The notes under the pieces were generated by a model that worked only from the letters and a program-made list of their open reading frames with translations, had not been told where the DNA came from and searched no databases. A stretch of DNA of 64,000 nucleotides, taken from Lutraria lutraria. Lineage: Eukaryota; Mollusca; Bivalvia; Venerida; Mactridae. The stretch covers positions 9,466,088 through 9,530,087 of the forward strand of contig OZ026837.1 of NCBI GenBank assembly GCA_964023205.1, in the 5' to 3' direction. This document shows positions 49,277-64,000 of the stretch, one piece after another (within the stretch, counting starts at the first letter, position 1; each line of letters starts with the position of its first letter). The translations under genes were made by a program, and so were the position numbers.

Positions 49277-49970
49277 ATACGTAATTCCATTTTATTTATT
49301 AATTTCGTTTCTTTTATAACAAGTACTTTGACTTACATTTGGGCTTGGATAACTAGCGCACCCTATAGGGACCCTTTCGAGGCAAAGAATTCCATGGTTA
49401 GATGTTAACATACACTATATCAATATTTCCATCTTATTATGCACAGTCTCGCATACCAAATTTCATCAACATATTTTGACTTTTCTGTTACCAAAGCAAC
49501 CATAATTTTGACCAAGGAGAAAAAACAACCAGAGCTTATCTAGGTAAATAAAAATTCCGGGTGCATGCCCCCGGATCTCCCTAGAGTGACCCTGGGGCTG
49601 GACCTCCCTAGAGTGCCCCGACTTAAATTTATTTCTGGCTACGCCACTTTGTATACATGTATATACGACTCATTGGTGTAATTATAACACTGTCATTATC
49701 GGCGACATCATTACTCAGTAATATGGTAGGAAATTTGTGAAATTTAATACATATGTTGCATGATAAAGGGAATATAAGTAGTATATGGCGATACCCTGGG
49801 TACCAAATCAACGTAATTGGTACCCAGAAGTTTTCAAAATTGTGACAAATTGGGACAAATTGGAAATCAATGTTGTACCCCAAAATAGTATGAAATGGAT
49901 TTTAGGAATGTTCTGGGTACTGTGTGTGTTTTGTTATTTGTACTGTATAGACTTAGACAATGAGAGAATT
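49277..49970. other. Sequence just outside the virus-like element
   Basis: No gene. Contains an unassigned repeat-like stretch around 49,550-49,650 (CCTCCCTAGAGTGCCCCGAC). A perfect 11-bp inverted repeat (CTGGGTACCAA ... TTGGTACCCAG) at 49,796-49,827 has a further CTGGGTAC at 49,913. The left edge of the virus-like element probably falls in or near this interval, but I could not define a terminal inverted repeat. Confidence 0.4.
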
Positions 49971-49980
49971 TTCTTTCGAA
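49971..49980 (-). promoter_or_regulatory. Candidate histone downstream element (U7-binding type), left unit
   Basis: The minus strand reads TTCGAAAGAA, continuing into AAATT. It starts about 10 nt after the second histone-type stem-loop. Histone pre-mRNAs carry a purine-rich, GAAAGA-like element at this distance that pairs with U7 snRNA. An equivalent sequence sits at the same place after the other stem-loop pair (56,001-56,010). Confidence 0.55.
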
Positions 49981-49990
49981 AAGACATGGT

Positions 49991-50028
49991 GGCCCTGAAA
50001 AGGGCCGTTGGTGGTCCTGAAAAGGACC
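49991..50028 (-). promoter_or_regulatory. Tandem pair of histone-type mRNA 3' stem-loops (left unit)
   Basis: On the minus strand two hairpins occur in series: GGTCCTTTTCAGGACC (50,028-50,013) and GGCCCTTTTCAGGGCC (50,006-49,991). Each has a perfect 6-bp stem, a TTTC tetraloop, CAAC before the stem and ACCA after it. These features match the animal replication-dependent histone 3' stem-loop bound by SLBP. The pair starts about 13 nt downstream of the stop of the coiled-coil gene. A copy of the whole pair lies at 56,021-56,058. Confidence 0.85.
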
Positions 50029-50040
50029 GTTGGTGGTTTT

Positions 50041-50514
50041 TTAAACCGTGTTTGCTGACTGATCTGGTTGGGTACATAGTTCGCATTGGCAGTCTGGTGG
50101 GGGATAGCAGAGCCTGCATGTTGAATCCCCACAGGACCATTCCTGTTCTGGTACTGGTGGTTGTTCCGTGTACTCAACTTGAGCGGTAGTGATGATACGC
50201 CAATGCTCTTCTTCTTGTTGTTGTTCCCGTTGTCTATTCACCGTTCGTTCCCGAGCATCTCGCTGCCTTTCTCTGACTTGATCTCGAAATTGAGATAATT
50301 CTTCTCTATGATGAAATCGATTGGTTTCAATGGTATTCAAAGTCTCACCAATGAATTGAAGATCACGTTCCCTTTTTCTAACAATGCTAGCCGCTAAGCG
50401 ACTGATTGAACGCCATACCCTGCTCTGTTTTTCAGTCAGTTGTTTTGCTGTTTTGAGTTCATTGAATAAAGCCTCCATCTTGAGTGTTTGAGTTCTCAGA
50501 ATGAAATGAGGCAT
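50041..50514 (-). CDS. Coiled-coil, Cys-rich C-terminus protein of the virus-like element (histone-type 3' end)
   Basis: 157 residues from the first ATG at 50,514. The frame stays open upstream to 50,619, but that part overlaps the CRE-like promoter sites and has no ATG. The middle is strongly charged and helical (for example QFRDQVRERQRDARER, NRQREQQQEEEHW), predicting a long coiled coil. The C-terminus is Cys-rich: CGDSTCRLC, then CQCELC, a possible metal site. I do not recognise the family. It is the last gene in the transcription direction. It is separated from the protease by a poly(A) signal and its own promoter-like block, and its stop lies about 13 nt before tandem histone-type stem-loops. 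The expected product is a nuclear or regulatory protein made in S phase, which is inference only. Confidence 0.6.
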   Translation of the reverse strand: MPHFILRTQTLKMEALFNELKTAKQLTEKQSRVWRSISRLAASIVRKRERDLQFIGETLNTIETNRFHHREELSQFRDQVRERQRDARERTVNRQREQQQEEEHWRIITTAQVEYTEQPPVPEQEWSCGDSTCRLCYPPPDCQCELCTQPDQSANTV

Positions 50515-50549: not shown

Positions 50550-50618
50550 CCGCCCACTCTCGTGGTTGGATGACGTCATATCGCTTGGATGACGTCACCC
50601 TAGGGTTGGATGGCGTCA
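50550..50618 (-). promoter_or_regulatory. Promoter-like block: three CRE/ATF-type sites and a GC box
   Basis: Two perfect TGACGTCA palindromes lie at 50,571-50,578 and 50,590-50,597, with a variant TGGCGTCA at 50,611-50,618. All sit in a repeated GGTTGGATGACGTCA context spaced about 20 bp apart. A CCGCCC/GGGCGG box lies at 50,550-50,555. The block is 36-105 bp upstream of the ATG of the downstream coiled-coil gene. CRE sites bind ATF/CREB factors. Two more perfect CREs occur in each arm of the palindrome near 58,904-58,924. Confidence 0.6.
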
Positions 50619-50748: not shown

Positions 50749-51339
50749 TTAATGATCACCATAAAGAGTTGTATTTCTATGTGTGATACTATGATACAAA
50801 CGGTTGTGACCTTCTGGTCTAGAGTTACGTTGAGCACAACACTTTTGTCCACACTTGTTCACATATTGAGCATGCATGTAATAAGTACCATAATATTGTT
50901 GAAACCAATGCGTCACATAAGTGTCATTTTTTCCATACATGTCCGGTTTGAATCGGGTTAACAGTATCTGGTTCAAGTCACATTCACGTGAGATAAAATC
51001 CAAAGCGAATAGACAATACACACCACACACCGGTAACATATCGCCTTGTATTCTCATGGCATTCCACAGATAAGTTTTGTTGGCATGTTTTTTCACAAAG
51101 GTTAGAATCTCTTCGAAAGGAGGTAATCCGTAGGAATCAAAGTACACTGCTTTATTGTCTTTTAAATAAAGAGCCACCCAGTGTTCTCCACGTTGATTCC
51201 CGTTATGGGTATTCACAATATAGGCTTTCACGTCATGCGGTTTCTCTGAAGGTAATTGATCTTTGGCACAAACACGAGCATGTAGTGGTTTTAATAACGG
51301 TGAATGATCTAATAGGTATTGTAGTTCATTCGTCTCCAT
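50749..51339 (-). CDS. Adenain-like (Ulp1/C48-C5 fold) cysteine protease of the Maverick-like element
   Basis: 196 residues from the ATG at 51,339, close to the ~200 of adenovirus protease. The catalytic set is in the expected order: His53 in GEHWVALYL, Asp68 in YFDSYG, Gln98 in RIQGD and Cys105 in VCGVYC. In adenoviruses and Mavericks this enzyme cleaves capsid and core precursors during maturation. The ATG overlaps the last 14 bp of the upstream 154-aa gene. A longer frame to 51,375 lacks an ATG. The gene is followed by an AATAAA signal at 50,705-50,700. All catalytic residues are present, so this copy may encode an active enzyme. Confidence 0.85.
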   Translation of the reverse strand: METNELQYLLDHSPLLKPLHARVCAKDQLPSEKPHDVKAYIVNTHNGNQRGEHWVALYLKDNKAVYFDSYGLPPFEEILTFVKKHANKTYLWNAMRIQGDMLPVCGVYCLFALDFISRECDLNQILLTRFKPDMYGKNDTYVTHWFQQYYGTYYMHAQYVNKCGQKCCAQRNSRPEGHNRLYHSITHRNTTLYGDH

Positions 51340-51790
51340 AATGCCAATTTCTGTTGACACGTTCAGCCCAAACACTGATCCATTGATCTATGAACTGATT
51401 CTGAGTGAGTTCTTCTTTAAATTGAATCCATAATCGACACGCGTCTCCTTTTTCACTATCGGTCAAGGTCACTAATTCAGGATACCACTTTTCCATGACC
51501 TTGAACACGTCCAAACGTTGAATCGCTTTTTGAATGTAAAGTTCTGTCCACTCTTCCGTATTCGTGTATAAGCAGAGTACATGTTGTACTTGACTAGGAT
51601 GATTCACTCGACAACCATAACAGTCTTTATGCACTTGATTATAAATTAAAGATTGGAGTGCTTCTGTGACGTGATGATTCAAGCACTCTTGTAAAAAGTC
51701 CGTCCTTGAACTTGTACAACAAGGATACGCCAATAACTTCATTTCGTAATCTTGTCCTTTTTCCAGGTGTTCAATATCCATGTCTTCCAT
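51326..51790 (-). CDS. 154-aa conserved Cys/His protein of the element, function unknown
   Basis: 154 residues. A central cluster CYGCRVNHPSQVQHVLC (C-x2-C-x3-H-x5-H type) suggests a metal-binding knuckle, flanked by helical Trp-rich segments. I recall related proteins next to F54H12.2-like capsid genes in other invertebrate elements but know no assigned function. Its ATG lies one base after the stop of the capsid gene (TAAG-ATG) and its end overlaps the protease start by 14 bp, so it belongs to the same packed cluster. It could be a minor virion or assembly protein (inference). Confidence 0.65.
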   Translation of the reverse strand: MEDMDIEHLEKGQDYEMKLLAYPCCTSSRTDFLQECLNHHVTEALQSLIYNQVHKDCYGCRVNHPSQVQHVLCLYTNTEEWTELYIQKAIQRLDVFKVMEKWYPELVTLTDSEKGDACRLWIQFKEELTQNQFIDQWISVWAERVNRNWHYGDE

Positions 51791-51791
51791 C

Positions 51792-53090
51792 TTAATAATC
51801 TAGAAGCACTTCTCTGAATTGATTGATTTCAATTTGATTGTCGTATTCCGCAAATACAATCACGTTGATGGCTTGTGCAAGTGCTGTTCCAAAGTGAAAT
51901 TCCAATCTCAGATTGCCCGTTTTTATAGGATGGAGTTGACCTTCCTCGCAACCTTGATCTGCTGTCAAGTCCAACCCCCAGAGTGTGTATCCGTTCCGAT
52001 AATCATTCATGCTCAATCCAAATGAACGATTGAGACCAAGAGCTCCTGTCGCTTGATAGAGTGACATGTAGGATCTTAGAACTTCTCCCGTTTCAAAATT
52101 GGGTTGAAACGCTTTGTTATGAATACTTTTTCCGTCAATGCTGACTTCTAGATGATTCAGTGTAAAATGACGGAAATCAAAGGGGTTGGTAGCCATGTCT
52201 CCATTCATGTCTCCATTTCTTACCATACCGATGATAAGACGTTTTGGCAATTGACCTTGAAATAAATGATCTTCAATCTTGGATCGTTGACCGTTAGGAA
52301 TCGTAAATGTTTTTACTTCAGTTCGTCGGATGGGGATTTTCATGTTATGTTGAGCAATCTGTTGATTGAGTTGATTGGCTACCACTGGCGGTAAATCTAC
52401 TGTTCTTACATTAAATCCTGCTTCTAGAAACTTGATTTTAGCCGGTGCGGCACCCATGAGACAGAATTGAGGTGACGCTTTGTTTAGTCTTAAGCGTATT
52501 TCCATACCATTGGGTAAATATTTATCTTGCATCATCAGATCCAAATGAAGTCGTCCACATAGTTCCACCACACGACTTTGAAGGACACGATCACGTCTCT
52601 CAATATAGCCCAGGTTACCCCCGTCATGTGCGTGGGTGTTCATATGACCAGGGGTGTCTTCACCCCATAACTCTAGCGCCTGAAGTTGAGTGTCTTTACA
52701 GCTTGAGGTGAAGGAGAGTAAATTTTCTATGTATGCCCGATAGGCATACGTGTCCGCATTGCTGGTGATCAGTTTATTATTCAGGTACACATCAATGCTT
52801 GAGAACATACTGTGAAAGAAATTGTTGACGGTAGCAATTTCACTGTCGGCCGCTAGGTCTGTACCATCTGCCTGTATAATTTTGAGTTTTAGGTACAGGT
52901 AAGATTGATTCAGATCTGTCCATTTTTCTGTCTGTGCAGGAATCACAAATTCAATCGGAGCATTATTGTCCAGAGCAGAAATGGGATAATGTTCAGTCCA
53001 TTGACCTTCTTGCATGGCTGTCATGGTAGGTGGCACAACAGACACATCCAACTCTGTCTTACTACATTCACAGGAACCGTGTTGCATCAT
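51792..53090 (-). CDS. F54H12.2-like protein, putative double jelly-roll capsid protein
   Basis: 432 residues, full length and uninterrupted. It resembles the invertebrate family annotated from C. elegans F54H12.2, which sits beside the F54H12.3 transposon integrase, the same pairing as here. Alternating hydrophobic strands fit two beta-sandwich halves: SYLYLKLKI and FFSSIDVYL-like text near residues 60-105, then PKRLIIGMV and LNHLEVSIDG near 280-320, and NLRLEFHFG and INVIVFAEYDN near 395-420. I infer it to be the major capsid protein; it is shorter than typical Polinton capsid proteins, so a minor capsid role is possible. It starts ATGATG two bases after the stop of the core-like gene. Truncated copies of its first 48 residues occur in both palindrome arms. 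Confidence 0.7.
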   Translation of the reverse strand: MMQHGSCECSKTELDVSVVPPTMTAMQEGQWTEHYPISALDNNAPIEFVIPAQTEKWTDLNQSYLYLKLKIIQADGTDLAADSEIATVNNFFHSMFSSIDVYLNNKLITSNADTYAYRAYIENLLSFTSSCKDTQLQALELWGEDTPGHMNTHAHDGGNLGYIERRDRVLQSRVVELCGRLHLDLMMQDKYLPNGMEIRLRLNKASPQFCLMGAAPAKIKFLEAGFNVRTVDLPPVVANQLNQQIAQHNMKIPIRRTEVKTFTIPNGQRSKIEDHLFQGQLPKRLIIGMVRNGDMNGDMATNPFDFRHFTLNHLEVSIDGKSIHNKAFQPNFETGEVLRSYMSLYQATGALGLNRSFGLSMNDYRNGYTLWGLDLTADQGCEEGQLHPIKTGNLRLEFHFGTALAQAINVIVFAEYDNQIEINQFREVLLDY

Positions 53091-53092
53091 GA

Positions 53093-53458
53093 TTAATCGA
53101 AAATATCAAGAGGTCTGGCCTGCTTAACTCGGCGATGATGAAGTTTCGAATGAGGTCTTTTCTTGACTGGTTTGCTCTTTATACGTCTTTTAGGGCTGGC
53201 CACGGCATGTAGCAAGGATTCACCCACATCTTTTAATACAGAGGCTCCACGTTTTCGTATTACTTGTTTAGCGTTTGATCCTGTCAAGATATCTTTGATA
53301 GCGGCTTTTCCTTGCTGGAGTCCTTCTTTTTTCAAGGTGCGAACTCCAGATTTCACAAATGGATTCAGTAAAGGTATAATTCTTTTCATGGCTTTCTTAA
53401 ACATGGATCCAAGTCCGTGTCCATATTGTCGAGGTTGACCTTGGTAAGTAGGTATCAT
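53093..53458 (-). CDS. Basic core-like protein with amphipathic N-terminal helix
   Basis: 121 residues. The N-terminus has a Gly-rich turn then an amphipathic helix (YGHGLGSMFKKAMKRIIPLL). The C-terminus is very basic (SPKRRIKSKPVKKRPHSKLH). This layout resembles the small virion core/membrane-active proteins (pX or pVI type) of adenoviruses and adintoviruses. A role in DNA condensation or endosomal escape is an inference from the layout. Its ATG overlaps the stop of the penton-like gene (ATGA). Near-identical copies occur at 59,454 and 62,330. Confidence 0.65.
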   Translation of the reverse strand: MIPTYQGQPRQYGHGLGSMFKKAMKRIIPLLNPFVKSGVRTLKKEGLQQGKAAIKDILTGSNAKQVIRKRGASVLKDVGESLLHAVASPKRRIKSKPVKKRPHSKLHHRRVKQARPLDIFD

Positions 53459-54297
53459 TGTCTTTGGCGTAGGTGTAGTTTCACCATAGACTTCCCATGA
53501 ATAAACTGAATAGACTGGCCAGTGTCACCCCTTATATGGATAGTGATGGTGTCAAAGTCGGCTTTAGCCAGTGGTACATAGTGTAAATTCAAGAACTCGA
53601 AATGAATATGAGGGTTAGTTCCTGCTTTCGTTCTCGGATCAAATGGAGCTACACGTAAGATGGGGGCTTCTATGTTTCCCAAATAGGTATAAGACGCAAG
53701 GTCGGAATAAACAAACAAATGATTATGACCCATGTTAATATCTACGCCATGAGGAAACGGATCTGGAGTGTCTTTAAAAAAGATGGTCGAAGAACTATCA
53801 GGGGCTCCACCCAGTTTAATAAACATGTGAGGATGAAACTGAATGCCTAGTTGATCCGAACTGTCCAGTTTTGCGCGTTTACTTTGTCCTGAAAAACCCA
53901 TGGTAAATCGAAGGCCTTTCTGTCTAAATATTTTACCTAATTGATCTTTCACGGTAAAGTCAATCGTCTCGATCAAATGTTGGGGTGTGACATAAGTTCC
54001 TATAGGAATACAAAGTCGTACACCTTTTTCTTCTTTATTGGGGAGAGTACAATAGGTCTCAAAGTTTTCTAAGGCCTTACCCAGGACAGGATCATGTGTG
54101 ACAATGTAGAAATGTCGCTCTTCTTCAGTGACATTAACGACCTGACTAGGAACAATCATTTCCACTAAGGCAATTTCCCAATCTTGTTTATTGAGATGGA
54201 TGGGTTTTGCCAGTTTGGTACGAAAACAACATTGCGTATTGTCTTGGAATAAATCCATAGAGCTATCACTCATGAGTGTGATGTAAAACGAACTCAT
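53455..54297 (-). CDS. Penton-like minor capsid protein of the Maverick-like element
   Basis: 280 residues, intact. It begins MSSFYITLMSDSSMDLFQDN, followed by F-x-T-K-L-A-K-P and WEIALVEM. The C-terminal half contains HLFVYSDLASYTYLGNIEAP, then LHYVPL and ITIHIRGDTGQSIQF. This pattern (VYSD, G-x-x-x-APLLR, YVPL, I-x-I-R-D/G-D-T-G) is one I associate with the minor capsid protein of invertebrate Maverick/Polinton elements. It would sit at capsid vertices as a single jelly-roll. The ATG overlaps the stop of the small membrane protein gene and its TGA overlaps the next ATG. Two other copies are present in the palindrome and differ at several dozen sites. Confidence 0.7.
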   Translation of the reverse strand: MSSFYITLMSDSSMDLFQDNTQCCFRTKLAKPIHLNKQDWEIALVEMIVPSQVVNVTEEERHFYIVTHDPVLGKALENFETYCTLPNKEEKGVRLCIPIGTYVTPQHLIETIDFTVKDQLGKIFRQKGLRFTMGFSGQSKRAKLDSSDQLGIQFHPHMFIKLGGAPDSSSTIFFKDTPDPFPHGVDINMGHNHLFVYSDLASYTYLGNIEAPILRVAPFDPRTKAGTNPHIHFEFLNLHYVPLAKADFDTITIHIRGDTGQSIQFIHGKSMVKLHLRQRQ

Positions 54298-54552: not shown

Positions 54553-55626
54553 CTAAACGAGATGGGATTCGGGAATCCAACTGTCAAATTTCGAAGGATA
54601 ACCTTTCCAATGTACTTTAATTTCTCGTCTTCCGTCTACCTTACTCTGGCGATGGGCGAGCACTGATTCAATTTCATAGATAGCATCATCTTTTATAACC
54701 TGTACTTCAGAGAAATAAAACGAACCCAAAATGGGTTCTCCGTCTAAATCAGTCAATTTCACAGTAGCAGGAGAGGTCTTTTTGACTTGGATCACTTTAA
54801 ACAGTTCAGTGGTCCAGTTAGGTAGATAACCTTTATCAAATGTACGTTTTGTTTTATTGATACGAACAATATCTCCCACATGAAGGGTCGTCGACGCTTT
54901 TTTTCTTGATTTTCCATACAAGGTCAAGGCCACTTGAGATTCGTTATTCTCATTTACGGATACGGGTGCCATTTGTATACTACGATGAACACGATGATTA
55001 TAGGCATGCACGAGATCAGACAATACCTGAATATACCTTCGTGTTTTATGATGCGTAAAGTATTTCCACATGCGTGATTTTAAGGTCCGTTGAAAACGTT
55101 CCACTATACTAGCCTTAGTTTCTGGGTTTTCAGTCGTAAAATAATGAATCCCTACTTTGTCTAAAAACTGTTGAAACCTTTGATTCTTGAATTCTGTTCC
55201 TTTATCGGTTTGCAACGCTTTAGGTTGTCTCGTTTTAAGAATAGAGCGAAACGCTTCCACCAATGTGAGCCCCGTTTTATCCTTGAGGGGAACGACCCAA
55301 GCATATTTTGAAAACACGTCAATGACACACAACAAATATCGATAAGGGGTGTTGTACTGAGCCAAGGATTGCATGTCTGCCAAATCAGCTTGCCATTGAT
55401 GATCAATACCACCCACAATCGTTTTCCGTCTCGAGAATACCCTACGGATAGGTTTGTGCAGGGTATAGGTCTTTTGTCCCTTCAACCAGGATCGCACTTG
55501 ACTTGGCGTAATGGATTTCAGTTGAGTTCGAGCTGCTGTAGTAAGACGTTCTACCCCACCAAAACCAGCCGGATGATGGGGATCATAATAAATCTGATGT
55601 AACAGACTGTCTACCTTTTTGTTCAT
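54553..55626 (-). CDS. Maverick/Polinton-type DDE integrase with C-terminal chromodomain (F54H12.3-like)
   Basis: 357 residues from the first ATG at 55,626; the frame is open a further 7 codons without an ATG. The N-terminal part has the HHPAGFGGVERL motif typical of Polinton integrases. The retroviral-type catalytic core carries Asp81 (QADLAD), Asp141 (TDKGTEF) and Glu176 (IVERFQ), with D-35-E spacing. A chromodomain occupies about residues 310-357 (REIKVHWKGYPSKFDSWIP), which could direct insertion to methylated-histone chromatin. The enzyme joins linear element ends to host DNA. All catalytic residues are intact. It follows the 52-aa gene by 5 nt and precedes the membrane protein gene by 14 nt. 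The gene order with F54H12.2 matches nematode relatives. Confidence 0.88.
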   Translation of the reverse strand: MNKKVDSLLHQIYYDPHHPAGFGGVERLTTAARTQLKSITPSQVRSWLKGQKTYTLHKPIRRVFSRRKTIVGGIDHQWQADLADMQSLAQYNTPYRYLLCVIDVFSKYAWVVPLKDKTGLTLVEAFRSILKTRQPKALQTDKGTEFKNQRFQQFLDKVGIHYFTTENPETKASIVERFQRTLKSRMWKYFTHHKTRRYIQVLSDLVHAYNHRVHRSIQMAPVSVNENNESQVALTLYGKSRKKASTTLHVGDIVRINKTKRTFDKGYLPNWTTELFKVIQVKKTSPATVKLTDLDGEPILGSFYFSEVQVIKDDAIYEIESVLAHRQSKVDGRREIKVHWKGYPSKFDSWIPESHLV

Positions 55627-56000: not shown

Positions 56001-56010
56001 TTCTTTCTGA
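56001..56010 (-). promoter_or_regulatory. Candidate histone downstream element (U7-binding type), right unit
   Basis: The minus strand reads TCAGAAAGAA, 10 nt after the second stem-loop, close to the CAAGAAAGA-type element of invertebrate histone genes. The flanking text (ATTGTC, CACTCTCAT) is shared with the left unit. Confidence 0.6.
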
Positions 56011-56077: not shown

Positions 56078-56401
56078 TTAATGGCGTTGACCGCATCTCC
56101 CCATACAAGCAGGACACCACTTGTCCCATTTCTGGACATCCTTGGGGTCCGGTGTGGGTTGATAGAGGTTCGAAGGAACCTCCGTGAGTTCATCTTCCCA
56201 GTTCTCTGGGGTTGATTCTTGAGGGGTATCCCCCCAGTCCTCTTCCCCAGAGCAGACCTCCACCTCCTCTGCGAACTTCTTCCCCTCTCTCAGGGTCTTC
56301 ACCTCCAACCGCAGCTCTTCTAGCTGCATTTCCAGCTGTTCAATATACAACCCTAAGGTTGTATACTTTCTCTTAATAATGTTAAGCGTACGTTGAGACA
56401 T
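56078..56401 (-). CDS. 107-aa coiled-coil/acidic protein with histone-type gene architecture
   Basis: 107 residues with a normal ATG. Residues 5-45 form a predicted leucine-rich coiled coil (LYIEQLEMQLEELRLEVKTL). A strongly acidic Glu/Asp/Pro region follows, and the C-terminus is WCPACMGRCGQRH, a possible zinc knuckle. I do not recognise the family. The gene is unusual in its signals: three CCAAT boxes in tandem lie 70-140 bp upstream and a double histone-type stem-loop lies about 20 bp downstream. This would give a short, non-polyadenylated, S-phase mRNA. A coiled coil plus acidic region would suit a transcription or replication accessory factor (inference). Confidence 0.6.
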   Translation of the reverse strand: MSQRTLNIIKRKYTTLGLYIEQLEMQLEELRLEVKTLREGKKFAEEVEVCSGEEDWGDTPQESTPENWEDELTEVPSNLYQPTPDPKDVQKWDKWCPACMGRCGQRH

Positions 56402-56470: not shown

Positions 56471-56542
56471 CCATTTTAACAGTATTTCATTGGTCCATTT
56501 TAACAGTATTTCATTGGTCTATTTTAACGGCATTTCATTGGT
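56471..56542 (-). promoter_or_regulatory. Three tandem 24-bp repeats, each with a GACCAATGAAAT CCAAT box
   Basis: Three head-to-tail 24-bp units (56,471-56,494, 56,495-56,518, 56,519-56,542). On the minus strand each reads ACCAATGAAAT, then an ACTGTTAAAA-like part. The GACCAATGAAA context resembles the NF-Y sites of histone H2A/H2B promoters. They sit 70-140 bp upstream of the 107-aa gene, the usual distance for such boxes. Confidence 0.65.
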
Positions 56543-56604
56543 CTGTTGTTTTCTAGGTCAGTTAGTGTTTTTTTCATGTTCCATAGCTCATTTATGTTTC
56601 ATGA

Positions 56605-58001
56605 TTCAACATGGTCGACATTGTCATGATTTGATATTAGTATATACAGTCAGTGTCATGATTTGATAAAAGTATAGACAATTAGTGTCATGATTTAATA
56701 TTAGTATAGTCAGTCAGTGTCATGATATGATAAAGGCATATACAGTCAGTGTCATGATTTGATATAGGCATAGAAAGTCAGTGTCATGATATGATAAAAG
56801 TATAGACAGTCAGTGTCATGATTTGATATTAGTGTAGACAGTCAGTGTCATGATTTGATATAGGTATAGACACTCAGTGTCATGATATGATATAGGTATC
56901 GACAGTCAGTGTCAAGATTTGATATTAGTATAGACAGTCAATGTCATGATTTGATAAAAGTATAGACAGTCAGTGTCATGATTTGATATAGGTATAGACA
57001 CTCAGTGTCATGATATGATATAGGTATCGACAGTCAGTGTCAAGATTTGATATTAGTATAGACAGTCAATGTCATGATTTGATATTAGTATATACATTGT
57101 TATGATTTAATATAAGTAGATACAGTCAGTGTCATGATTTGATAAAAGTACAGACAGTCAGTGTCATGATTTGATATGGTATAGACAGTCAGTGTCATGA
57201 TATGATATAGGTATCGACAGTCAGTGTCAAGATTTGATATTAGTATAGACAGTCAATGTCATGATTTGATATTCGTATATACATTGTTATGATTTAATAT
57301 AAGTAGATACAGTCAGTGTCATGATTTGATAAAAGTACAGACAGTCAGTGTCATGATTTGATATGGGCATTGACAGTCAGTGTCATAATTTGATAAAGGT
57401 ATAGACAGTCAGTTTCATGATATGATATAGGTATAGACAGTCAGTGTCATGATATGATATATGTATAGACAGTCAGTTTCATGATATGATACAGGTATAG
57501 ACAGTCAGTGGCATGATATGATATATGTATAGACAGTCAGTGTCATGATTTGATGTTGGTATAGACAGTCAGAGTCTTGATTTAATTTTAGTATATACAG
57601 TCAGTGTCATGATTTGATATCAGTATAGATAGTCAGTGTCATGATATGATAAAATTATAGAGAGTCAGTGTCATGATATGATATAGGTATAGACAGTCAG
57701 TGTCATGATTTGATATAAGTATAGACAGTCAGTGTCATGATATGATATGGTTATATACAGTCAGTGTCATGATTTGATATTAGTATAGACAGTCAGTGCC
57801 ATGATTTGAAAAAAGTATAGACAGTCAGTGTCATGATATGATATGGTATAGACAGTCAGTGTCATGATTTGATGTTATTATAGACATTCAGTGTCATGAT
57901 TTGATATTGGTATAGACAGTCAGTGTTATGATATGATAAAAGTATAGACAAAAGTATAGACAGTCAGTGTCATGATTTGATTTAAGTATATACGGTCAGC
58001 A
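56605..58001. repeat. 32-bp satellite, about 43 copies
   Basis: Tandem units of the form GTCAGTGTCATGATTTGATA plus TTAGTATAGACA. The copies vary (ATATGATA for TTTGATA, and several AAAGTATAGACA tails). Longer blocks such as 56,880-57,000 recur nearly unchanged at 57,000-57,100 and 57,190-57,300, showing multi-unit duplication. It separates the intact element from the palindrome. Confidence 0.95.
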
Positions 58002-58045
58002 AGGTTTTATTTGTTCCAACACTTCAAGATTGTGTTAAATTCATG

Positions 58046-58425
58046 GTTATATTGTATAACTATTATATTATATCACTGTTATATTGTATCACTGTTATAC
58101 TGTATTACTGTTATATTGTATAACTATTATATTATATCACTGTTATATTGTATCACTATTATATTGTATCACTGTTAAACTGTATTACTGTTATATTGTA
58201 TCACTGTTATATTGTATCACTGTTATATTGTATCACTGTTATATTGTATCACTGTTATATTGTATAACTATTATATTGTATCACTGTTATATTGTATCAC
58301 TGTTATATTGTATCATTGTTATATTGTATCACTGTTATATTGTATCACTGTTATATTGTATCACTGTTATATTGTATAACTATTATATTGTATCACTGTT
58401 ATATTGTATCACTGTTATACTTTGT
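58046..58425. repeat. 16-bp satellite (TGTTATATTGTATCAC)n
   Basis: About 24 tandem copies of a 16-bp unit, with periodic variants such as TATTATATTGTATAAC. Its reading frames are artefacts. The part from 58,149 onward is mirrored at 63,724-64,000. Confidence 0.95.
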
Positions 58426-58716
58426 AGAAAAATGTTACACATCACACAATCACATTATACATCACACTTTATACATGATTGAAAAAAATGTGACAGTCTC
58501 TTAAGGTTTTTGAAGTCTATTACGAAGTGTTAAGGATCGTATTCTAAATACTGTCAGAAATTCATAGTAAATTGATTTTCGTTAATTAACCATATATAAA
58601 TTCCAATAAACTAGACCCAAAAAAATGGAATAAATATTTCCTTCCATATTACTGTATAAATTCATGTTATTAATAGGAAACATTACCTAAAAACTAAAAA
58701 AAGAGAAAAAAGTATG

Positions 58717-58752
58717 GTCCCAGTGGGGTTTGAACCCATGATCCTAAGGAAT
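58717..58752 (-). repeat. tRNA 3'-half-like fragment in the left arm
   Basis: The minus strand reads GATCATGGGTTCAAACCCCA, then CTGGGACC, which matches a T-arm and acceptor 3' strand. No convincing D-arm lies upstream, so it is a fragment or SINE relic. The mirrored copy is at 63,397-63,432. Confidence 0.4.
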
Positions 58753-58903
58753 ATGTCAATATGTCAGTAAAATTCATGAAATTGAGTATTCTTCAAAATG
58801 GAGGTTTCGAATTAGAGATTGAAATCCTTAACTCTTTGTATTATAAGTAGCAAACGTACACTTACCCCATAATATCTACGCACTAGCACATTAAGTTTAT
58901 AAA

Positions 58904-58924
58904 TGACGTCATGATTTGACGTCA
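58904..58924. promoter_or_regulatory. Two CRE palindromes in the left arm
   Basis: TGACGTCA at 58,904-58,911 and again at 58,917-58,924. They lie beside the conserved block TCAGATAGG-ATGTAAATATA that also flanks the histone-type stem-loops at 55,948-55,970. The mirror copies are at 63,225-63,245. Confidence 0.5.
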
Positions 58925-59001
58925 TCAGATAGGTATGTAAATATAGTATTATGATACTGACAATGTGAGAGTGATTTATTTATTTTTTGGAATGGTATGT
59001 T

Positions 59002-59017
59002 GGCCCTTATTTGAGCC
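59002..59017 (-). promoter_or_regulatory. Altered stem-loop at the position of the histone-type hairpin (left arm)
   Basis: The minus strand reads GGCTCAAATAAGGGCC, a 5-bp stem (one G-T pair) with an AAATAA loop. The flanks (CATAC; CACTCTCACATTGTC; TACATACCTATCTGATGACG) match those after the stem-loop pair at 56,021. It therefore occupies the same place but has lost the TTTC loop and the second hairpin. It is probably non-functional for SLBP. Confidence 0.45.
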
Positions 59018-59099
59018 ACCATGTGTTAGATTCGTTTTGTTTCTGAATCAAAGACAAAAGCATATTACATTGTATATCATTTATTTATATATAATTTCT

Positions 59100-59291
59100 T
59101 TAACTTAGTTTAAATAAGAAAGTACAAATAACAAAGTACAGTATGACAATAAAAGCATTCATTGTTGAAGGGTTCCGTACAAACCGTAGAATTCCACAAC
59201 GAAAACATTCTATATGATCCCAAATATGCTTTCGAAACACAAACTCTTCTTTTGTGAATTTCTCACATACTTCACAAACCAAGCCACACTG
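59100..59291 (-). pseudogene. C-terminal fragment of a C2H2 zinc-finger/membrane protein (left arm)
   Basis: The open frame begins just after an in-frame stop and has no ATG at its start, so it is a 5'-truncated gene. It contains a perfect C2H2 finger, C-x2-C-x12-H-x3-H (CEVCEKF ... FRKHIWDH), followed by ECFRC and a hydrophobic C-terminal segment (AFIVILYFVICTFLF). It probably is the remnant of the last gene of a related element whose middle part was deleted, joining it to the capsid fragment. Its stop is about 80 bp before the altered stem-loop. Confidence 0.55.
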
Positions 59292-59451
59292 CTAGGTGCA
59301 GGAATCCGAATTCTATGGGAGTATTATTGTCCAGGGCAGAAATGGAATAATGCTCAGTCCATTGACCCTCTTGCATGGCTGTCATGGTAGGTGGCACAAC
59401 AAACACATCCAACTCTGTCTTACTACATTCGCAGGAACCGTGTTGCATCAT
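59272..59451 (-). pseudogene. Truncated F54H12.2-like capsid gene (left arm)
   Basis: It keeps the first 48 codons of the capsid protein (compare 53,090 downward), starting ATGATG two bases after the core gene stop. After PIEF the homology ends abruptly; the frame runs 11 more codons through unrelated sequence to a TGA. The same junction is present in the right arm, so the deletion predates the palindrome. Confidence 0.8.
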
Positions 59452-59453
59452 GA

Positions 59454-59819
59454 TTAATCGAAAATATCAAGAGGTCTGGCCTGCTTAACTCGGCGACGAT
59501 GAAGTTTCGAATGAGGTCTTTTCTTGACTGGTTTGCTCTTTATACGTCTTTTAGGGCTGGCCACGGCACGTAACAAGGATTCACCCACATCTTTTAATAC
59601 AGAGGCTCCACGTTTTCGTATTACTTTTTTAGCGTTTGATCCTGTCAAGATATCTTGCATAGCGGCTCTTCCTTGTTGGAGTCCTTCTTTTTTCAAGGTG
59701 TGAACTCCAGATTTCACCAATGGACTCAGTAAAGGCATGATTCTTTTCATGGCTTTCTTAAACATGGATCCAAGTCCGTGTCCATATTGTCGAGGTTGAC
59801 CTTGGTAAGTAGGTATCAT
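59454..59819 (-). CDS. Core-like basic protein (left arm copy)
   Basis: 121 residues, intact. It differs from the copy at 53,093 at about a dozen residues and from the right-arm copy at one (Leu for Phe in PLLSPLVKSG). It has the same amphipathic N-terminal helix and Arg/Lys-rich C-terminus. The start overlaps the penton stop (ATGA). Whether it is expressed is unknown, since the capsid gene after it is truncated. Confidence 0.65.
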   Translation of the reverse strand: MIPTYQGQPRQYGHGLGSMFKKAMKRIMPLLSPLVKSGVHTLKKEGLQQGRAAMQDILTGSNAKKVIRKRGASVLKDVGESLLRAVASPKRRIKSKPVKKRPHSKLHRRRVKQARPLDIFD

Positions 59820-60658
59820 TGTCTTTGGCGTAGGTGTAGTTTCACCATAGACTTCCCATGAATAAACTGAATAGACTGGCCAGTGTCACCCCTTATACGG
59901 ATAGTGATGGTGTTAAAGTCGGTTTTAGCCAGTGGTACATAGTGTAAATTCAAGAACTCGAAATGAATATGGGGGTTAGTTCCTGCTTTCGTTCTCGGAT
60001 CAAATGGAGCTACACGTAAGATGGGGGCTTCTATGTTTCCCAAATAGGTATAAGCCGCGAGGTCAGAATAAACAAACAAATGATTATGACCCATGTTAAT
60101 ATCTACGCCATGAGGAAACGGCTCCGGAGTGTCTTTTAAAAAGATGGTAGGAGAACTATCAGGAGCTCCACCCAGTTTAATAAACATGTGAGGATGAAAC
60201 TGAATGCCTAGACTATCTGAACTGTCCATTTTCACGCGTTTACTTTGTCTCGAGAAACCTAAGGTAAATCGAAGATTTTTCTGTTTAAACATTTTACCCA
60301 GATTATCTTTAATGGTAAAGTCAATCGTCTCGATCAAATGTTGTGGTGTGACATAAGTTCCTACAGGAATACAAAGTCGTACACCCTTTTCTTCTTTATT
60401 GGGGAGAGTACAATAGGAAATTAAGGATTCAAAGGTCTTAGCCAGGACAGGATCGTGTGTAACAATGCAGAAATGTCGCACTTCTTGAGTGACATTGATC
60501 ACCTGACTAGGAACAATCATTTCCACTAAGGCAATTTCCCAGTCTTGTTTATTGAGATGGATGGGTTTTGCCAGTTTGGTACGAAAACAACATTGCGTAT
60601 TGTCTGGGAATAAATCCATAGAGCTATCACTCATGAGTGTTATGTAAAACGAACTCAT
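59816..60658 (-). CDS. Penton-like minor capsid protein (left arm copy)
   Basis: 280 residues, uninterrupted. It differs from the right-arm copy at about six positions, including Pro for Gln in MDLFPDN, QEVRHFC for EEERHFY, PEPF for PDPF and AAYTY for ASYTY. In every one of these the right arm agrees with the copy at 53,455, so the left arm is the odd one. The substitutions are clustered. Its ATG overlaps the stop of the membrane protein gene. Confidence 0.68.
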   Translation of the reverse strand: MSSFYITLMSDSSMDLFPDNTQCCFRTKLAKPIHLNKQDWEIALVEMIVPSQVINVTQEVRHFCIVTHDPVLAKTFESLISYCTLPNKEEKGVRLCIPVGTYVTPQHLIETIDFTIKDNLGKMFKQKNLRFTLGFSRQSKRVKMDSSDSLGIQFHPHMFIKLGGAPDSSPTIFLKDTPEPFPHGVDINMGHNHLFVYSDLAAYTYLGNIEAPILRVAPFDPRTKAGTNPHIHFEFLNLHYVPLAKTDFNTITIRIRGDTGQSIQFIHGKSMVKLHLRQRQ

Positions 60659-60900
60659 GTTGATTTAGGTTTATTGAATTTCAAGGAGCGATTCGGTAGA
60701 ATATAACCTAAAGAACTACTTAAAAGCAGAAGCCACAATTCCCGATCGGGTCGTTGAAAACACAAATTAAATAGCGATACGGTAATAATAATAAATACCA
60801 CTACAATTTGTGACAAAAAAGCGACCTTATTTTTAGGTTCACACAATTTGGCTTGCTCTGAGGCAGTCACTTCCACACTGGCCGTATCAGCTTGAGACAT
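60655..60900 (-). CDS. Small membrane protein (left arm copy)
   Basis: 81 residues from ATG (MSQADTASVE). There is one clear hydrophobic segment (FLSQIVVVFIIITVSLFNL) and a second, shorter one (LWLLLLSSSLGYIL), with a basic C-terminus. The reading frame is identical to the right-arm copy. The stop overlaps the penton ATG (ATGA). It lies directly after the integrase chromodomain tail. The function is unknown. Confidence 0.6.
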   Translation of the reverse strand: MSQADTASVEVTASEQAKLCEPKNKVAFLSQIVVVFIIITVSLFNLCFQRPDRELWLLLLSSSLGYILPNRSLKFNKPKST

Positions 60901-60919
60901 GATGTATTTATTAACCAGT

Positions 60920-61233: not shown

Positions 61234-61248
61234 ACTAATAAATACATC

Positions 61249-61494
61249 ATGTCTCAAGCTGATACGGCCAGTGTGGAAGTGACTGCCTCAGAGCAAGCCA
61301 AATTGTGTGAACCTAAAAATAAGGTCGCTTTTTTGTCACAAATTGTAGTGGTATTTATTATTATTACCGTATCGCTATTTAATTTGTGTTTTCAACGACC
61401 CGATCGGGAATTGTGGCTTCTGCTTTTAAGTAGTTCTTTAGGTTATATTCTACCGAATCGCTCCTTGAAATTCAATAAACCTAAATCAACATGA
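61249..61494 (+). CDS. Small membrane protein (right arm copy)
   Basis: 81 residues, identical to the left-arm copy. The TGA overlaps the ATG of the penton gene. See the left-arm entry for membrane segments. Confidence 0.6.
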   Translation: MSQADTASVEVTASEQAKLCEPKNKVAFLSQIVVVFIIITVSLFNLCFQRPDRELWLLLLSSSLGYILPNRSLKFNKPKST

Positions 61495-62333
61495 GTTCGT
61501 TTTACATCACACTCATGAGTGATAGCTCTATGGATTTATTCCAAGACAATACGCAATGTTGTTTTCGTACCAAACTGGCAAAACCCATCCATCTCAATAA
61601 ACAAGACTGGGAAATTGCCTTAGTGGAAATGATTGTTCCTAGTCAGGTGATCAATGTCACTGAAGAAGAGCGACATTTCTACATTGTTACACACGATCCT
61701 GTCCTGGCTAAGACCTTTGAATCCTTAATTTCCTATTGTACTCTCCCCAATAAAGAAGAAAAGGGTGTACGACTTTGTATTCCTGTAGGAACTTATGTCA
61801 CACCCCAACATTTGATCGAGACGATTGACTTTACCATTAAAGATAATCTGGGTAAAATGTTTAAACAGAAAAATCTTCGATTTACCTTAGGTTTCTCGAG
61901 ACAAAGTAAACGCGTGAAAATGGACAGTTCAGATAGTCTAGGCATTCAGTTTCATCCTCACATGTTTATTAAACTGGGTGGAGCTCCTGATAGTTCTCCT
62001 ACCATCTTTTTAAAAGACACTCCAGATCCGTTTCCTCATGGCGTAGATATTAACATGGGTCATAATCATTTGTTTGTTTATTCCGACCTTGCGTCTTATA
62101 CCTATTTGGGAAACATAGAAGCCCCCATCTTACGTGTAGCTCCATTTGATCCGAGAACGAAAGCAGGAACTAACCCCCATATTCATTTCGAGTTCTTGAA
62201 TTTACACTATGTACCACTGGCTAAAACCGACTTTAACACCATCACTATCCGTATAAGGGGTGACACTGGCCAGTCTATTCAGTTTATTCATGGGAAGTCT
62301 ATGGTGAAACTACACCTACGCCAAAGACAATGA
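61491..62333 (+). CDS. Penton-like minor capsid protein (right arm copy)
   Basis: 280 residues, uninterrupted. It shares with the left arm many differences from the copy at 53,455 (for instance KTFESLISYC and KMFKQKNLRFTLGF), so the two arms are sisters. Where the arms disagree, this copy carries the same residue as 53,455. It is either the less mutated arm or was corrected by gene conversion. Its stop overlaps the next ATG. Confidence 0.7.
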   Translation: MSSFYITLMSDSSMDLFQDNTQCCFRTKLAKPIHLNKQDWEIALVEMIVPSQVINVTEEERHFYIVTHDPVLAKTFESLISYCTLPNKEEKGVRLCIPVGTYVTPQHLIETIDFTIKDNLGKMFKQKNLRFTLGFSRQSKRVKMDSSDSLGIQFHPHMFIKLGGAPDSSPTIFLKDTPDPFPHGVDINMGHNHLFVYSDLASYTYLGNIEAPILRVAPFDPRTKAGTNPHIHFEFLNLHYVPLAKTDFNTITIRIRGDTGQSIQFIHGKSMVKLHLRQRQ

Positions 62334-62695
62334 TACCTACTTACCAAGGTCAACCTCGACAATATGGACACGGACTTGGATCCATGTTTAAGAAAGCCAT
62401 GAAAAGAATCATGCCTTTACTGAGTCCATTTGTGAAATCTGGAGTTCACACCTTGAAAAAAGAAGGACTCCAACAAGGAAGAGCCGCTATGCAAGATATC
62501 TTGACAGGATCAAACGCTAAAAAAGTAATACGAAAACGTGGAGCCTCTGTATTAAAAGATGTGGGTGAATCCTTGTTACGTGCCGTGGCCAGCCCTAAAA
62601 GACGTATAAAGAGCAAACCAGTCAAGAAAAGACCTCATTCGAAACTTCATCGTCGCCGAGTTAAGCAGGCCAGACCTCTTGATATTTTCGATTAA
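62330..62695 (+). CDS. Core-like basic protein (right arm copy)
   Basis: 121 residues, intact, one residue different from the left-arm copy (PLLSPFVKSG). The amphipathic N-terminus and basic C-terminus are retained. It is followed after TAATC by the truncated capsid gene. Confidence 0.65.
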   Translation: MIPTYQGQPRQYGHGLGSMFKKAMKRIMPLLSPFVKSGVHTLKKEGLQQGRAAMQDILTGSNAKKVIRKRGASVLKDVGESLLRAVASPKRRIKSKPVKKRPHSKLHRRRVKQARPLDIFD

Positions 62696-62697
62696 TC

Positions 62698-62877
62698 ATG
62701 ATGCAACACGGTTCCTGCGAATGTAGTAAGACAGAGTTGGATGTGTTTGTTGTGCCACCTACCATGACAGCCATGCAAGAGGGTCAATGGACTGAGCATT
62801 ATTCCATTTCTGCCCTGGACAATAATACTCCCATAGAATTCGGATTCCTGCACCTAGCAGTGTGGCTTGGTTTGTGA
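62698..62877 (+). pseudogene. Truncated F54H12.2-like capsid gene (right arm)
   Basis: Mirror of 59,272-59,451: 48 codons of capsid homology followed by 11 unrelated codons and a stop. The gene is broken by a deletion that joined it to the zinc-finger fragment. Confidence 0.8.
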
Positions 62878-63049
62878 AGTATGTGAGAAATTCACAAAAG
62901 AAGAGTTTGTGTTTCGAAAGCATATTTGGGATCATATAGAATGTTTTCGTTGTGGAATTCTACGGTTTGTACGGAACCCTTCAACAATGAATGCTTTTAT
63001 TGTCATACTGTACTTTGTTATTTGTACTTTCTTATTTAAACTAAGTTAA
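62858..63049 (+). pseudogene. C2H2 zinc-finger/membrane protein fragment (right arm)
   Basis: Mirror of 59,100-59,291. The reading frame is identical, including the C2H2 finger and the hydrophobic C-terminus. It starts after an in-frame TAG at 62,855 and lacks an ATG at its beginning. Confidence 0.55.
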
Positions 63050-63131
63050 AGAAATTATATATAAATAAATGATATACAATGTAATATGCTTTTGTCTTTG
63101 ATTCAGAAACAAAACGAATCTAACACATGGT

Positions 63132-63147
63132 GGCTCAAATAAGGGCC
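63132..63147 (+). promoter_or_regulatory. Altered stem-loop at histone-hairpin position (right arm)
   Basis: Mirror of 59,002-59,017: GGCTCAAATAAGGGCC on the plus strand, downstream of the zinc-finger fragment, followed by CATACCATTCC and CACTCTCACATTGTC. Confidence 0.45.
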
Positions 63148-63224
63148 AACATACCATTCCAAAAAATAAATAAATCACTCTCACATTGTCAGTATCATAA
63201 TACTATATTTACATACCTATCTGA

Positions 63225-63245
63225 TGACGTCAAATCATGACGTCA
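63225..63245. promoter_or_regulatory. Two CRE palindromes (right arm)
   Basis: Mirror of 58,904-58,924: TGACGTCA twice, at 63,225-63,232 and 63,238-63,245. Confidence 0.5.
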
Positions 63246-63396
63246 TTTATAAACTTAATGTGCTAGTGCGTAGATATTATGGGGTAAGTGTACGTTTGCT
63301 ACTTATAATACAAAGAGTTAAGGATTTCAATCTCTAATTCGAAACCTCCATTTTGAAGAATACTCAATTTCATGAATTTTACTGACATATTGACAT

Positions 63397-63432
63397 ATTC
63401 CTTAGGATCATGGGTTCAAACCCCACTGGGAC
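63397..63432 (+). repeat. tRNA 3'-half-like fragment (right arm)
   Basis: Mirror of 58,717-58,752, with GGGTTCAAACCCCACTGGGA on the plus strand. Confidence 0.4.
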
Positions 63433-63723
63433 CATACTTTTTTCTCTTTTTTTAGTTTTTAGGTAATGTTTCCTATTAATAACATGAATTTATACAGTAA
63501 TATGGAAGGAAATATTTATTCCATTTTTTTGGGTCTAGTTTATTGGAATTTATATATGGTTAATTAACGAAAATCAATTTACTATGAATTTCTGACAGTA
63601 TTTAGAATACGATCCTTAACACTTCGTAATAGACTTCAAAAACCTTAAGAGACTGTCACATTTTTTTCAATCATGTATAAAGTGTGATGTATAATGTGAT
63701 TGTGTGATGTGTAACATTTTTCT

Positions 63724-64000
63724 ACAAAGTATAACAGTGATACAATATAACAGTGATACAATATAATAGTTATACAATATAACAGTGATACAATATAACA
63801 GTGATACAATATAACAGTGATACAATATAACAATGATACAATATAACAGTGATACAATATAACAGTGATACAATATAATAGTTATACAATATAACAGTGA
63901 TACAATATAACAGTGATACAATATAACAGTGATACAATATAACAGTGATACAATATAACAGTAATACAGTTTAACAGTGATACAATATAATAGTGATACA
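63724..64000. repeat. 16-bp satellite, right arm
   Basis: Reverse complement of the left-arm array (GTGATACAATATAACA)n, continuing to the window end. Confidence 0.95.

Follow-up and report, generated by a model that had tools for sequence, protein, structure and literature searches.

Histone-type hairpins at the 3′ ends of three genes in a Polinton/Maverick element of Lutraria lutraria

Tandem hairpins of the kind that ends replication-dependent histone mRNAs lie just 3′ of three genes in a Polinton/Maverick element of the bivalve Lutraria lutraria. Judging from sequence, it is probable (roughly 80%) that the mRNAs of these genes, CC157, CC108 and p252, are cut by the histone 3′-end machinery of the host and left without a poly(A) tail. 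This reading is supported by the match to the hairpins of the host's own histone genes, by the retention of the site in dozens of element copies and, in part, by the pattern of poly(A) signals. The original prediction named a single gene ended by such hairpins, and three were found. The window, meaning the whole stretch of DNA that was analysed, is 64,000 nucleotides long (C6:9466088-9530087), and the host assembly searched holds 728.5 Mb in 71 contigs. At the DNA level, the hairpin was followed in one Polinton family of one species, and no report of histone-type 3′ ends in Polinton/Maverick elements was found in the open-access literature searched.

Hairpins in the window and in host histone genes

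On the minus strand of the window, the stop codon of CC157 (50043-50041) is followed after a 12-nt spacer by hairpin 1, GGTCCTTTTCAGGACC (50028-50013; GGTCCT-TTTC-AGGACC), and 6 nt further on by hairpin 2, GGCCCTTTTCAGGGCC (50006-49991; GGCCCT-TTTC-AGGGCC). Both are flanked by CCAAC on the 5′ side and ACCA on the 3′ side, and a purine-rich, HDE-like GAAAGA stands beyond them at 49977-49972 on the same strand. Two perfect SLBP-type hairpins 3′ of a stop codon, with a 6-bp stem, a TTTC loop and ACCA, had been predicted, and position, covariance model and pattern scan all agree with this; the predicted GAAAGA-type element is also present, at a measured 13 nt past hairpin 2 instead of the 10–12 nt claimed. 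A covariance-model search had been proposed, and Rfam Histone3 (RF00032) matched 49965-50011 with 35.8 bits (gathering score 34; E 1e-06), the sole Rfam match in the 64-kb window that exceeds a gathering score. When up to two mismatches were allowed, the window had four sites for the hairpin pattern, each of them a perfect match on the minus strand, against 0.10 expected, and none of 100 shuffles of the window sequence gave four sites. Folding of a 90-nt RNA of the CC157 site formed both hairpins at -25.7 kcal/mol (z -3.7). A third, shorter hairpin, GGTTTAAAAAACC (50047-50035, minus), seen in the sequence and in folding, overlaps the CC157 stop codon, and many copies of the element, not all, have one. 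Downstream of the HDE-like element, alignment of copies showed a conserved CTCTCATTGTCT (49955-49966, minus).

The second hairpin pair of the window, at 56058-56043 and 56036-56021 on the minus strand, is identical to that of the CC157 site and lies 3′ of CC108 (56078-56401, minus), which has 107 codons here and which we read as a coiled coil with a Cys-rich end. Hairpin 1 of this internal site was located by the pattern scan and in other copies, hairpin 2 was matched by Histone3 at 31.7 bits, under the gathering score of 34, and comparison of copies placed a GAAAGA at 56002-56007 (minus).

The histone genes of the host are clustered on C6 in units of ~6.84 kb, and the one unit read has the order H3-H4-H2B-H2A-H1. 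The four core genes, H3, H4, H2B and H2A, share the hairpin GGCCCTTTTTAGGGCC, H1 has GGTCCTTTTCAGGACC, and these hairpins stand 28-31 nt past the stop. A comparison of the loop with the species' own histones had also been called for. Hairpin 1 of the element is the host H1 hairpin, letter for letter, and hairpin 2 has the stem of the host core histones with a loop one base apart (TTTC vs TTTT); a few element copies (L074, L101, L105, L134) have exactly the host core version. In addition, TCTCTCATT is common to the 3′ flanks of the element and of host H1, a weak likeness (p 0.024, uncorrected, one of 12 comparisons). The element thus shares with the replication-dependent histone 3′ end (RF00032) a 6-bp stem, GG(C/U)CCU..AGG(G/A)CC, a UUUC or UUUU loop, CCAAC and ACCA flanks, a purine-rich element ~13 nt on and a place near the stop codon; in the full-length copies read, the first 250 nt past the stop also hold no poly(A) signal, although eight hairpin-less genes there lack one as well. 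It differs in that its genes are non-histone genes on a mobile element, with two of the three sites in the terminal inverted repeat (TIR), and in that its hairpins usually come as a series of two (copies range from 0 to 3), whereas the host histone genes read have one.

With regard to the processing factors, the RNA-binding domain of SLBP (PF15247) was found in two neighbouring stretches of host contig C10 (E 7.9e-14 and 1.4e-5). The best match of a family search for host U7 snRNA reached 29.2 bits, under the cut-off of 34, and a search for U7 by pattern gave 37 matches vs 35 in the control, which is no better. By its likeness to the histone element, GAAAGA may act as an HDE.

A further locus of the host genome, L012 (C12:22876000-22885900), consists of tandem ~1.5-kb units, and Histone3 matches continue to about 22915400. 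Each of the six units read has a 109-codon non-histone gene with a histone-type stem-loop 39 nt later and CAAGAAA or a similar element after it; the stem-loop has one C-A mismatch in the stem and scores 28.4-31 bits, below gathering. Proteins related to its product number 227, and those with names come from Mya arenaria and Pinctada imbricata; this may be another non-histone gene, itself conserved, that relies on histone-type 3′-end formation.

The element and its copies

The hairpin-bearing element is about 17 kb long and belongs to the Polinton/Maverick class, as had been proposed. It has in common with this class a type B DNA polymerase (PolB), a chromodomain rve integrase, an ATPase, a probable adenain-like protease, an F54H12.2-like capsid protein, a penton-like protein, TIRs and 6-bp target duplications, and it differs in the histone-type 3′ ends on three accessory genes. 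The polymerase was found at L017:1478-4744 (PF03175, E 2e-38). The integrase INT of the window (54553-55626, minus) matched Pfam rve at E 3.5e-12 and Chromo at E 1.4e-07. A protein search with the major capsid protein MCP (51792-53090, minus) gave 384 proteins at E <= 0.001, of which 120 were listed; the named relatives among these listed matches are F54H12.2-like proteins of Mercenaria, Saccostrea, Ostrea and Crassostrea, which we take to mark Polinton capsids, and a Pfam search with MCP gave no match. Several labels follow from gene order and from similarity to L001, which is one of three contaminant contigs with related elements (L001-L003) found in a scan of genome contigs. These are the penton-like minor capsid protein (53455-54297, minus; E 4.6e-23 against its L001 counterpart), the pVI-like small basic protein (53093-53458, minus) and the adenain-like protease PRO (50749-51339, minus), which matched L001 PRO at E 1.45e-18 and Pfam C5 at 13.9 bits, below the cut-off of 21.3. 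The ATPase was recognised by similarity of L016 8760-8999 (E 6.7e-20) and of the start of L017 (1.3e-05) to an ATPase-like ORF of L001, which was itself labelled from a P-loop read in its sequence. TIRs of 276-302 bp and 6-bp target duplications were present in all three copies measured.

The original prediction spoke of a left unit, but the window copy is rearranged and not a complete unit: CC108 adjoins the integrase, and neither polymerase nor ATPase was detected in it by similarity search. The coiled-coil gene does stand beside the adenain-like protease, as stated in the prediction. This gene, CC157 (50041-50514, minus), has 157 codons, which we read as a coiled coil with a Cys-rich C-terminus, and gave no match in a Pfam search; between PRO and MCP the ORF list has a 154-codon frame (51326-51790, minus). 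Two further features of the window may be recorded. One is a perfect inverted repeat (58149-60913 / 61236-64000) with arms of at least 2765 bp around a 322-nt centre. It runs up to the window edge and doubles the genes for penton and pVI-like proteins in a second fragment of the element, through either a recent duplication as a palindrome or an error of assembly. The other is a set of tandem arrays (56490-57932 and 57961-58499) of 32-bp and 16-bp units, which lie between this fragment and the first.

The element family is young and abundant. Genome-wide, CC157 gave 516 first-look candidates and at least 150 scored copies, each at least 96% identical, and 38 of these 150, the window's included, encode exactly the window protein. 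For the capsid, 471 candidates gave 95 scored matches, all free of internal stops. At least 44 Histone3 matches were found in the host assembly, from 75 scored of 131,090 first-look candidates; this list is a lower bound, from which the window site itself is missing. Half of them (22/44) form 11 inverted pairs that are 16.7-17.8 kb apart. Inverted pairs of CC157 itself, ~14-16 kb apart, were seen at C18:20091890/20106277, C16:15355862/15370803, C16:32003064/32018633 and C12:30941866/30957073, which suggests element isomers with CC157 at both ends.

Our full-length gene map is composed of pieces of two different copies, L016 and L017, and leaves ~0.2 kb of the element uncovered. On the opposite strand of these copies are a zinc-knuckle gene, p116, then CC108 and p252, the last with a repetitive middle and a lysine-rich tail. 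Outside the family, Histone3 gave no match at E up to 1 in L001-L003, where L001 ends ~0.8 kb past the protease. Integrase and MCP queries found no relative in viral contigs, hairpin patterns gave 0, 0 and 1 match there (L120), and the phage collection gave no match.

Placement and conservation of the hairpin sites

In the L016/L017 pieces, no more than three genes are followed by hairpin pairs, namely CC157 and p252, which stand at opposite ends, and the internal CC108. At either end of the three copies measured, the TIR has the hairpin site as its inner border, and each terminal gene therefore runs into the same signal. At the p252 site, hairpin 1 is broken in L017 and both hairpins are intact in L006, L008, L009 and L018. 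When copies were compared, the first intact hairpin of all three genes lay 12-49 nt past the stop, in sense orientation and with the HDE-like element beyond. A decayed hairpin of opposite sense, GGCCCTTATTAGGGCC (L017:5926-5941, minus), was also noticed between p116 and CC108; its flanks are kept and no gene obviously ends before it.

Neither AATAAA nor ATTAAA occurs within 250 nt of the stop of CC157, CC108 or p252 in the full-length copies (L016/L017), where PRO (+52), INT (+11), p120 (+15) and p116 (+125) have AATAAA after the stop; in the window, PRO and INT are likewise followed by AATAAA and by no hairpin. In the same full-length copies, 11/18 genes are without a poly(A) signal within 250 nt and 8 of those have no hairpin. 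Several of these hairpin-less genes run directly into the next gene and may be co-transcribed. Moreover, 9/40 sampled CC157 copies have AATAAA ~38 nt past hairpin 2, beyond the HDE, and in these copies polyadenylated ends could be formed.

Conservation was measured in samples chosen without regard to the hairpin, and diversity from copies found by the hairpin was left out. The CC157 sample comprised 40 of the 150 listed copies, picked to span the list, and the MCP sample 12 of the 95 listed. At least one intact hairpin was present in 39/40 CC157-chosen copies, at least two in 37/40, and GAAAGA in 40/40. Per-site diversity in these 40 copies was 0.009 in hairpin 1, 0.012 in hairpin 2 and 0.000 in the HDE, compared with 0.088 in the spacer between stop and hairpin and 0.165 in the remainder of the TIR sequence fetched. 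For the MCP-chosen copies, the site was inside 9/12 windows (L131, L136 and L140 miss it), and none of these nine had fewer than two intact hairpins. Copies that had lost the stems had been named beforehand as evidence against the prediction; the stems are kept, for example in the 39 copies above.

The internal site was kept in 8/8 copies chosen by distance from the end. In six divergent copies, local alignment of the CC108 3′ UTR to L017 gave 97-99% identity over 98-104 of 122 nt, while the CC108 ORF of the same copies was 92.1-94.5% identical and the downstream sequence 81-91%; the other two copies were 99-100% identical to L017 throughout. For copies found by one end, the opposite end was predicted in 15 cases, and 8/15 of these places carried a hairpin array in which one hairpin or more was intact. 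Among the remaining windows, L076 contains a decayed end without an intact hairpin, L077 contains p252 only, and L070, L073, L075, L078 and L079 have no element sequence at the predicted place. Between hairpins 1 and 2, one C-G pair is compensated to U-A, and U-G intermediates occur among copies; this covariation concerns 1/6 pairs, its score is reached in 29/500 shuffles and its count of doubly changed pairs in 235/500, so we regard it as supportive, not strong. Conservation of the hairpins is shallow in time, because the listed copies are young, and at the two TIR sites homogenisation among copies may play a part.

The regions 5′ of the three genes also have promoter-like signals, which by themselves would be weak support. 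In the 91 nt before its start, CC157 has two perfect CREs (TGACGTCA, at 50571-50578 and 50590-50597, minus) together with an E2F-like site; the first 48 kb of the window contain a single CRE. By this sequence, CC157 appears to have its own promoter. The CRE palindromes and the E2F-like site recall S-phase and viral early promoters. Adenovirus E2-type promoters have CRE/ATF sites near an E2F-like site, an arrangement that CC157 shares as a likeness of sequence alone. Upstream of CC108 are four CCAAT boxes in 24-nt repeats; five are found at the host H3 gene, but the motif is common (133 in 48 kb). A TATA box lies upstream of p252.

Alternative readings and proposed mechanism

The hairpins might instead be a DNA-level element of the terminal repeat, serving replication, packaging or integration, with an incidental likeness to histone signals. 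That two of the sites border the TIR on its inner side in the copies measured, that the stems are perfectly palindromic and that the count of intact hairpins varies from 0 to 3, as in a small tandem repeat, would fit this. However, the CC108 site lies inside the element, away from the TIR, and is equally well kept, and all three sites are in sense orientation just 3′ of a stop (12-49 nt) with the HDE-like element beyond. Moreover, a palindrome in DNA has no need of an SLBP-type loop, whereas here the loop (TTTC/TTTT), flanks and stem match host histones, one hairpin letter for letter, and we consider the DNA-level reading unlikely. Still less probable, and the least so of the alternatives, is a histone 3′ UTR that was captured once and has been carried along without function. 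The identity of hairpin 1 with the host H1 hairpin and TCTCTCATT in the H1 3′ flank (p 0.024, one of 12 comparisons) are what such a passenger would leave, but diversity in the hairpins and HDE is over ten times below that of the neighbouring TIR, the internal UTR is better conserved than the adjacent coding region, and the sites persist at three genes with no poly(A) signal in the next 250 nt.

Polintons are relatives of virophages, and this kinship, together with the downstream AATAAA in 9/40 copies, lends something to a reading of the hairpins as polyadenylation signals of the virophage or Mimivirus style, which we nevertheless hold to be very improbable. There is a precedent in the Sputnik virophage, for which PMC6723459 describes a Mimivirus-specific hairpin polyadenylation signal at the ends of 16 genes. 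In both cases, a virus-like element would have taken over, for its gene ends, a hairpin that belongs to the machinery on which it depends. The hairpin of Sputnik is the polyadenylation signal of the giant virus and matches that virus, not the host, whereas the letters of our element match the histone hairpins of its animal host, and an SLBP domain is present in that host; no giant-virus partner was noticed in the sequences read.

The reading we prefer is 3′-end formation by the host histone machinery. In histone pre-mRNA, as set out in PMC6303110, SLBP binds the stem-loop, U7 snRNP binds the HDE, and cleavage takes place ~5 nt past the loop. For the element, SLBP would bind the hairpin, a U7-type particle would pair with GAAAGA, and a CPSF73-type nuclease would cleave past ACCA. 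The two hairpins in series might, as a speculation, give higher SLBP occupancy or provide a spare. Tail-less cleavage of this kind would lead the three mRNAs to accumulate in S phase, where they would be stable and translated, and to decay afterwards.

Since ordinary poly(A) signals stand behind PRO and INT, the element would make two classes of mRNA, a poly(A) type and a histone type timed to the replicating cell. With somewhat less confidence, we favour the wider proposal that the element has captured the host histone pathway, with integrase, protease and others expressed from poly(A)-type mRNAs, three histone-type mRNAs made only during host DNA replication, and the signal kept in the TIRs. 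Owing to this location, both ends of each new copy would carry the signal. Replication-timed expression would also suit an element that has its own polymerase and replicates in dividing cells.

If this proposal is true, this would be the first known capture of the histone 3′-end pathway by a mobile element or virus, and the element would be among the first non-histone users of that pathway. Three of its mRNAs would be hidden from poly(A)-selected RNA-seq. Polintons could then time gene expression to S phase, and in this genome they could do so in more than 100 copies.
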